This document shows positions 38,788-40,365 of a stretch of 64,000 nucleotides of DNA, piece after piece. The notes under the pieces were generated by a model that was not told the origin of the DNA, did no database searches, and saw only the letters and a list, made by a program, of their open reading frames with translations. Position numbers and translations under genes: made by a program. Source of the stretch: a bacterium (GTDB lineage Bacteria > Myxococcota_A > UBA9160 > SZUA-336); the NCBI GenBank assembly GCA_024226335.1, contig JAAELY010000118.1, positions 62,001 to 126,000 of the forward strand, in the 5' to 3' direction. The first letter of the stretch is position 1; each line of letters starts with the position of its first letter.

Positions 38788-38835
38788 TGAGCGACTCAAC
38801 GCGAGGTCCGAAGAAGTGGTAGGCGAGCGACTCAA
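38768..38835 (+). repeat. Imperfect tandem duplication spanning the pstA end and pstB1 start
   Basis: Copy 1 (38768-38799) begins GAGGTCACAAGAAGTGGTAG and copy 2 (38803-38835) begins GAGGTCCGAAGAAGTGGTAG. Both end in GAGCGACTCAA. They differ by two substitutions and a small change with a one-base indel. Copy 1 contains the pstA stop. Copy 2 contains the GTG used by pstB1. Confidence 0.85.
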
Positions 38836-39580
38836 GCTCGAGATCCGCAATCTGTCGATCTCCTACGACGGGAAACCGGCTCTATCCGACGTGAGCCTGG
38901 GGATTCGCGAACACGAGATCTTTGGCGTCATCGGTCCCGCCAATGCGGGCAAGACTTCGTTCCTCAAGGCGCTCAATCGCATGGACGAATTCGATTCGGC
39001 CATGAAGGTTCGCGGCGAGATCCTGTTCGACGGGCGCGATGTTCGCGATTGCCGCAACGTCTATGCTCTGCGCCGTCGCATCGGAGTGGTCTTCCCGCTT
39101 CCCGTGGGTTTGCCTTTGAGCATCTACGACAACGTGGCCCTGGCTCCGCGGCTCTCGGGGGTCAAGAAGCGCACGGATCTCGACGTGATCGTGGAGCGCT
39201 GCCTGCAGCGGGCCGCGCTCTGGGACGAGGTCAAGGACCGACTCGACTCGCTCGGCAGTCTGCTCTCGGGCGGCCAGCAACAGCGGCTGACGATCGCTCG
39301 AGCCTTGTCTCAAGAGCCTGATCTGCTCTTTCTGGACGAGTTCTCGATCGCGGTCGATCCGGTTACCACCATGCGCATCGAAGACGTGCTGAAGGAACTC
39401 CGCCAGGAGATGACGATCATCCTGGTTACCAATCTGGTTCAGCAGGCCCGCAGACTCGCCGATCGCACTGCGTTTTTCATGGACGGTGCCTGCGTCGAGG
39501 TAGGCGAGACGGAGGAACTGTTCACGGGCGAAGTCAGTGATTCGCGCACTCGGGACTACGTGGAAGGGCGCTTCGGCTGA
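38816..39580 (+). CDS. pstB: PstB-like ATPase 1: normal signature motif, Q-loop and H-loop residues lost
   Basis: 254 residues from GTG 38816; upstream in-frame starts run into the duplication. Walker A is GPANAGKT (40-47), signature LSGGQ (150-154) and Walker B LLFLDEF with Asp174-Glu175. The Q-loop Gln of GMVFQ is Pro94 (GVVFPLPVG) and the H-loop His of VTHN is Asn206 (LVTNLVQQ). The expected Pst-specific SIYDN is kept at 102-106. These losses should disable ATP hydrolysis in its own Walker site. Its intact signature can serve the Walker site of a partner. It is coupled to PstB2 by a TGATG overlap. Confidence 0.92.
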   Translation: MVGERLKLEIRNLSISYDGKPALSDVSLGIREHEIFGVIGPANAGKTSFLKALNRMDEFDSAMKVRGEILFDGRDVRDCRNVYALRRRIGVVFPLPVGLPLSIYDNVALAPRLSGVKKRTDLDVIVERCLQRAALWDEVKDRLDSLGSLLSGGQQQRLTIARALSQEPDLLFLDEFSIAVDPVTTMRIEDVLKELRQEMTIILVTNLVQQARRLADRTAFFMDGACVEVGETEELFTGEVSDSRTRDYVEGRFG

Positions 39581-40365
39581 TGAGTGAAACCGCAGAGAAG
39601 ACGAAGTGCGCGATTCGCACACGCTCCCTCGACCTCTGGTACGGCACCTTTCAGGCGCTCTACGACGTGAACATCGAGATCAAGAGTGGCCAGATTACGG
39701 CTCTGATCGGGCCCTCGGGTTGTGGCAAGTCGACCCTTCTGCGCTGCGTCAACCGCATCATCGAACGCCTCGACTACGTACGAATTGAAGGGGGTATCGA
39801 GGTTCACGGCCAGGACGTCTACGCCTCCGACGTCGAGGTCGTACAGGTTCGCAAACAGGTCGGCATGGTCTTTCAGCGCCCGAACCCACTGCCAATCTCG
39901 ATTTACGACAACGTCCTTTTCGGTCACGGTCTGCACTCCGAGGCTCGCCGCGCGACGCGCGACGAGAAGGATGCGATCGTCGAGGAGGCGCTTCGCGGCG
40001 TGCTGTTATGGGACGAGGTGAAGGATCGGCTGCAACGCAAGGCCACCGAACTCTCGCTCGAAGAGCAGCAGAAACTGTGTATTGCCCGACTCCTTCCCGT
40101 AAAGCCGAGCGTATTGCTGATGGACGAACCCTGTTCTGCGCTCGACTCCCGAGGAACAGAAGCCATCGAGGAGTTGATCTGGAACCTGCGTGGCAAGTAC
40201 ACGATCCTGATCGTGACGCACAACATGGCGCAGGCGCGTCGCGCCAGTGAAGAGTGCATTTTCATGTTGCTCGGGCGTATGATCGAACACTCCGAGACCG
40301 CGGAGATGTTCGTTACACCGACCCGCCGGGAAACGGCCGACTACATCGAAGGTCGCTACGGTTGA
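39580..40365 (+). CDS. pstB: PstB-like ATPase 2: intact Walker, Q- and H-loops, degenerate signature motif
   Basis: 261 residues. Walker A GPSGCGKST (44-52), Q-loop Gln99 in GMVFQRPNP, Walker B LLMDEP with Asp182-Glu183, D-loop SALD and H-loop His214 in VTHNM are all canonical for PstB. The signature, LSGGQQQRLCIAR in ordinary PstB, is LSLEEQQKLCIAR (158-170). This is the mirror image of PstB1. In a heterodimer, its good Walker site would face the LSGGQ of PstB1, and its bad signature would face the damaged site of PstB1. It ends with IEGRYG like other PstB proteins. Confidence 0.93.
   Translation: MSETAEKTKCAIRTRSLDLWYGTFQALYDVNIEIKSGQITALIGPSGCGKSTLLRCVNRIIERLDYVRIEGGIEVHGQDVYASDVEVVQVRKQVGMVFQRPNPLPISIYDNVLFGHGLHSEARRATRDEKDAIVEEALRGVLLWDEVKDRLQRKATELSLEEQQKLCIARLLPVKPSVLLMDEPCSALDSRGTEAIEELIWNLRGKYTILIVTHNMAQARRASEECIFMLLGRMIEHSETAEMFVTPTRRETADYIEGRYG

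Follow-up and report, generated by a model that had tools for sequence, protein, structure and literature searches.

The PstSCAB phosphate importer of E. coli has a homodimeric PstB. Both chains of an ABC dimer contribute to each ATP site, one supplying the signature and the other the Walker, Q, and H elements (PMC7756269), and in E. coli PstB either a signature change (Q160K) or a Walker B change (E179Q) abolishes transport (PMC5775613). Two adjacent pstB genes within a pst operon are known from Firmicutes, namely Enterococcus faecalis PstB1/PstB2 (PMC12096839) and B. subtilis PstBA/PstBB (PMC11466899). The latter pair has been modelled as a heterodimer (PMC11466899), and the E. faecalis authors state that tandem pstB paralogues were unstudied before their work (PMC12096839). 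A consensus site paired with a degenerate one is familiar from the heterodimeric exporters TM287/288, BmrCD, TAP, and CFTR, whose two diverged subunits carry degenerate features that are conserved in orthologues and that usually, though not universally, include loss of the Walker B Glu (PMC7756269). Among importers, RbsA and NupO have one degenerate ATPase site (PMC11466899), and E. coli DppDF binds nucleotide asymmetrically (PMC12136057). All three handle other substrates and belong to other families than Pst.

The window, by which we mean the whole 64,000-nucleotide stretch of DNA that was analyzed, contains a pst operon whose PstS, PstC, PstA, and PhoU all score above their NCBIfam cut-offs (Table 1). 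It shares these families with PstSCAB, together with the type I importer architecture and an ABC fold with Walker A and B motifs. Whereas PstSCAB has one symmetric PstB, this operon encodes two diverged paralogues with complementary losses, PstB1 and PstB2, which are about 38% identical to each other. Both reading frames are intact, with start codons GTG at 38816 and ATG at 39580, and they overlap by one base (TGATG). PstB is the nearest NCBIfam family for both proteins, yet each falls below the TIGR00972 equivalog cut-off of 343.2 bits, a score exceeded by a member in 13 of 14 control genomes. The nearest solved PstB chains are PDB 9k3x and 9k3s.

Neither protein unites the Q-loop Gln, LSGGQ, and the H-loop His in one chain, as a canonical PstB does: PstB1 is without the Gln and the His, and PstB2 is without LSGGQ. 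The surrounding stretches read VVFPLPVGLP (Q-loop) and VTNL (H-loop) in PstB1, and GPSGCGKST (Walker A), VFQRPNPLP (Q-loop), MDEPCSALD (Walker B and D-loop), and VTHN (H-loop) in PstB2. An earlier note on this DNA had assigned Pro94, Asn206, and LSGGQ to PstB1 and Gln99, His214, and LSLEE to PstB2, and we find it right to the residue, at the positions in Table 1. To these we add further invariant changes in PstB1 (Walker B DEF for DEP and D-loop IAVD or IAID for SALD), the retention of its catalytic Glu, and the conservation of the operon, including a PhoU fusion.

Table 1. Features of the pst operon in the window, with scores and residue counts among orthologues
Feature	Position	Strand	Observation
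pstS, phosphate-binding protein	34851..35846 (longest ORF; likely start GTG ~34965)	+	TIGR02136 227.9 bits (cut-off 206.6); conserved in operon
phoU with C-terminal LMW-phosphatase/ArsC-like domain (residues about 221-351)	35895..36980	+	Catalytic Cys and Arg replaced; TIGR02135 132.0 bits (cut-off 130.25); PF01895 and PF01451 above gathering score
pstC, permease	36980..37912	+	TIGR02138 269.0 bits (cut-off 196.45)
pstA, permease	37912..38787	+	Unusual coupling-helix motif (ACWNMGATRWQT); TIGR00974 265.7 bits (cut-off 193.45)
pstB1, ATPase	38816..39580	+	Q-loop Pro, H-loop Asn, intact LSGGQ; TIGR00972 282.5 bits (below cut-off 343.2)
PstB1 Walker A GPANAGKTS	38933..38959	+	Lys retained; Lys in 121/121
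PstB1 Q-loop Pro94 replacing Gln	39095..39097 (CCG)	+	Pro in 121/121; four Pro codons used
PstB1 signature LSGGQ	39263..39277	+	Canonical; 121/121
PstB1 Walker B end and D-loop LDEFSIAVD	39332..39358	+	Retains the catalytic Glu; Phe replaces Pro; D-loop altered; D, E, and F invariant (121/121 each)
PstB1 H-loop Asn206 replacing His	39431..39433 (AAT)	+	Asn in 121/121
pstB2, ATPase	39580..40365	+	Q-loop Gln, H-loop His, degenerate signature LSLEE; TIGR00972 323.8 bits (below cut-off 343.2)
PstB2 Q-loop Gln99	39874..39876 (CAG)	+	Gln in 123/123
PstB2 signature LSLEE replacing LSGGQ	40051..40065	+	Third position Leu 123/123, fourth Glu 122/123
PstB2 H-loop His214	40219..40221 (CAC)	+	His in 123/123

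We pooled the proteins from all loci into a set of 121 distinct PstB1, 123 distinct PstB2, and 49 other PstBs. The source records of the pair come from Pseudomonadota, Acidobacteriota, Gemmatimonadota, Planctomycetota, Myxococcota, Bdellovibrionota, and SAR324. Every PstB1 has the Q-loop Pro, the H-loop Asn, LSGGQ, a Walker B DE followed by F, and a D-loop of the form I-A-V/I-D. Every PstB2 has the Gln and the His, and its signature follows the pattern LxL[E/D], with the first Gly always replaced by Leu and the second by Glu, or in one protein by Asp. The pattern persists between members as low as about 52% identity. Canonical Q, H, and LSGGQ are found in 48 of the 49 other PstBs, and the lone exception is a third paralogue adjoining one pair. 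A third PstB-like gene with more degenerate motifs (Q-loop Thr, signature LTTSM, H-loop Asn) stands straight after pstB2 at L209:599-1484 on the minus strand, and the same gene is present in L205.

The codons behind these residues are not fixed. Pro94 is encoded by CCG (46), CCC (32), CCA (13), or CCT (6) across orthologues, and Asn206 by AAC (74) or AAT (23); because synonymous codons vary under fixed residues, it is the amino acid and not the DNA that is held. Such fixed residues over shifting synonymous codons show purifying selection. The earlier note had named orthologous pairs that lose the complementary substitutions as the observation that would count against it, and every recovered orthologue preserves them. 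Their invariance in the genomes of other organisms also rules out chance or sequencing error as the source of the substitutions.

The two genes behave as a unit. They are adjacent at 119 loci, and the six single-gene loci are each explained by contig ends, a partial gene, or N bases, so that no intact locus with just one of the two was found among the loci scored (119 paired, 6 incomplete). At 61 of the 119 loci the genes overlap or lie no more than 15 nt apart; we also sought natural PstB1-PstB2 fusions and found none. In the tree, PstB1 forms one clade (SH-aLRT 100) and PstB2 another (SH-aLRT 99), and the two branch alike. Comparing the distances within the two families gives r = 0.93, where 500 permutations reached 0.25 at most. 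Such co-inheritance is to be expected of genes that share an operon, and PstA distances correlate with those of the two ATPases almost as strongly (r = 0.89 and 0.88).

Scanning GTDB species genomes, we recovered 80 loci at 68-76% identity to PstB2, nearly all with a PstB1 orthologue (70-86%) directly upstream. The share of genomes with PstB1 was 22/284 for the window's phylum, 5/274 for a class sample centered on Gammaproteobacteria, 4/64 for a sample around a Gemmatimonadota genome, and 18/149 around each of a Planctomycetota and an Acidobacteriota genome, rates that lean slightly high because the samples contain their center genomes. In ten sampled members of the window's own family, PstBs were either absent or only about 50% identical, and a search for PstB1 in five or six of these ten gave no match. 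The distribution of the pair is thus patchy, and its horizontal transfer is likely on this pattern.

A canonical PstB above the cut-off is also present in 17 of 34 pair-bearing genomes; in those 17, pairing of PstB1 or PstB2 with the canonical protein is possible. The asymmetric and canonical pst operons lie within a few kilobases of one another at two loci (L055 and L085). The window's genome (5.75 Mb, 97% complete) has no PstB above the TIGR00972 cut-off, and the products of pstB1 and pstB2 are its sole two PstB-like proteins at family level. We therefore rejected the idea that a second, canonical PstB is concealed there. The same genome also encodes PitA and a Na/Pi cotransporter, and thus the pair is its sole Pst ATPase but not its sole phosphate importer. 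The PitA-type and Na/Pi cotransporter-type genes are found close together (G000:C358:32780-35952, loci L223-L225).

Almost every main-clade locus on a sufficiently long contig has its genes in the order pstS, phoU with the extra domain, pstC, pstA, pstB1, pstB2. The permease motifs GRGFGETM (PstC) and SRTAGET (PstA) are conserved together with their Arg and Glu. In E. coli, these Arg and Glu residues are required for transport. We compared coupling helices with regard to the placement of the ATPases on the permeases: PstA is clearly changed (REACWNMGATRWQT versus REAALGVGAS of canonical PstA), and for PstC the comparison had five non-pair sequences. The changed PstA helix hints at a re-tuned contact with the ATPase. 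A nearly invariant Cys-Trp-Asn (CWN) in this helix (pstA, 37912-38787) is seen in the pair lineage and is absent from canonical PstA. Although clustering of neighboring genes was swamped by antisense ORFs of the GC-rich DNA, PhoR-like genes (21 loci) and PhoB-like genes (17 loci) still stood out around the operon. We checked one neighbor of each kind, and both scored above their equivalog cut-offs. Directly downstream of pstB2, the window holds a gene for a GDSL/SGNH-type esterase (40392-41558) with an SsfX3-like N-terminal match.

The extra domain of PhoU occupies the C-terminal part of the gene (window 36555-36947) and matches both LMW phosphatase (PF01451) and ArsC models. An Asp takes the place of its catalytic Cys in 65 of 69 orthologues, which led us to reject a working arsenate reductase, and the catalytic Arg is almost never kept, being mostly replaced by Leu. 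As these residues indicate, the PhoU of most members is a phosphate regulator with a conserved dead phosphatase-like domain. In intermediate and deep lineages, the PhoU that accompanies the asymmetric pair may be fused or plain. The pair does not depend on the fusion, given that deep members have a PhoU without the extra domain.

The explanation that we favor, and hold to be probable on the strength of these sequences, is that the two ATPases join in an obligate 1:1 PstB1-PstB2 heterodimer, in which a consensus site is paired with a degenerate one, and that this dimer drives a Pst-type phosphate importer. The locus has two distinct ATPase chains, complementary motif losses, and one consensus site left, as is characteristic of the heterodimeric class; loss of the catalytic Glu in the degenerate site, a further mark of that class, is not seen, with the Glu kept in all 121 PstB1. 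From such features we infer heterodimer formation, one-site hydrolysis, and phosphate transport. The dimer would sit under the PstC/PstA permease. Its site I, with the Walker A and B motifs, Q-loop, and H-loop of PstB2 closed by LSGGQ of PstB1, would be a complete consensus ATPase site. Site II would place the Walker motifs of PstB1, accompanied by Pro in place of Gln and Asn in place of His, opposite LSLEE of PstB2. It would retain the Walker Lys and the catalytic Glu and would be without the parts that sense the gamma-phosphate, and therefore probably binds nucleotide without hydrolyzing it, or hydrolyzes it poorly. Site II may thus act as a long-lived nucleotide-bound hinge while site I powers each cycle.

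The earlier note had called site II doubly damaged. This is sound for the Gln-to-Pro change together with LSLEE, but the His-to-Asn change may be mild, as an H-loop Asn mutant of ABCC1 NBS2 keeps wild-type-like transport (PMC7756269). With the PstB1 Glu kept and Asn tolerated in ABCC1, site II may retain some activity. The note's proposal of a heterodimer gains support from the invariant complementary substitutions, and an obligate partnership also fits the joint occurrence of the genes, the agreement of their trees, and the lack of orphans. More speculatively, and with more doubt than confidence on our part, site II could remain closed on unhydrolyzed ATP. The importer would then spend about one ATP on each phosphate and its dimer would never open completely, altering how PhoU reads its conformations; the dead phosphatase domain of PhoU might then be a second sensor or a docking arm.

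Several features of the locus could also be read in other ways. The complex might be mainly a phosphate sensor that imports little or no net phosphate: its asymmetric ATPase would linger in one conformation and, by way of the PhoU fusion, report external phosphate to PhoR. Conformation-locked E. coli PstB mutants do signal without transport (PMC5775613), and the dead domain on most PhoUs, the recurrent PhoR- and PhoB-like genes, the canonical Pst in half of the 34 genomes, and the PitA and Na/Pi cotransporter of the window's genome would all suit such a role. We nevertheless consider it unlikely, since one complete consensus ATPase site is maintained without exception, the permease motifs keep their Arg and Glu, half of the genomes (the window's included) show no canonical PstB, and deep lineages combine the asymmetric pair with a PhoU lacking the extra domain.

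Tandem pstB genes might instead encode separate homodimers with different jobs, for instance one for import and one that is regulatory or serves another permease. There is precedent in E. faecalis, where PstB1 and PstB2 are non-overlapping in function and excess PstB2 alone suffices, but those two proteins, unlike the pair here, both carry canonical motifs (PMC12096839). Either homodimer of the present proteins would have two incomplete sites. Based on the transport failure of E. coli Q160K and E179Q, a PstB2 homodimer is expected to fail, and since no intact locus holds one gene without the other, we give separate homodimers very little credence. That both proteins score below the PstB equivalog cut-off could point to relaxed drift or pseudogenization of a redundant paralogue. 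Such an origin is refuted, to the point that we assign it almost no probability, by invariance over several phyla with varying synonymous codons, purifying selection, intact reading frames, and a genome in which no canonical PstB would make the pair redundant.

An obligate PstB1-PstB2 heterodimer would differ from each of the described systems in its own way. No degenerate site has been reported in the tandem PstBs of Firmicutes. The heterodimeric exporters have the exporter fold, whereas this is a binding-protein-dependent importer that has kept the Glu and lost the Gln, the His, and the opposing signature. RbsA and NupO each consist of one fused polypeptide and have lost Walker B residues, the Walker A Lys, or both (PMC11466899), and DppDF, like the proposed pair, has unequal nucleotide sites (PMC12136057). 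The earlier note had considered this asymmetry undescribed for Pst importers, and indeed we found no description of a Pst with a degenerate site, though one-site importers as such are already known from RbsA and NupO. A literature search that covered few subscription papers turned up neither the degenerate PstB pair nor the PhoU fusion, which is weak evidence of absence.

The lopsided ATPase pair apparently works only when mixed, and its bearers are many bacteria from several phyla. They include Accumulibacter and Dechloromonas, which belong to groups known for polyphosphate accumulation in wastewater. Exporters have supplied most of the work on the open question of why ABC transporters keep a non-hydrolyzing ATP site. 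In the present case, a small binding-protein-dependent importer appears to have evolved the one-site arrangement and kept it over several phyla, and its symmetric relative is genetically well studied. The pump may thus be compared directly in its one-site and two-site forms for ATP cost per phosphate and for signalling to the Pho regulon, and proteins that are annotated simply as PstB would not be interchangeable.
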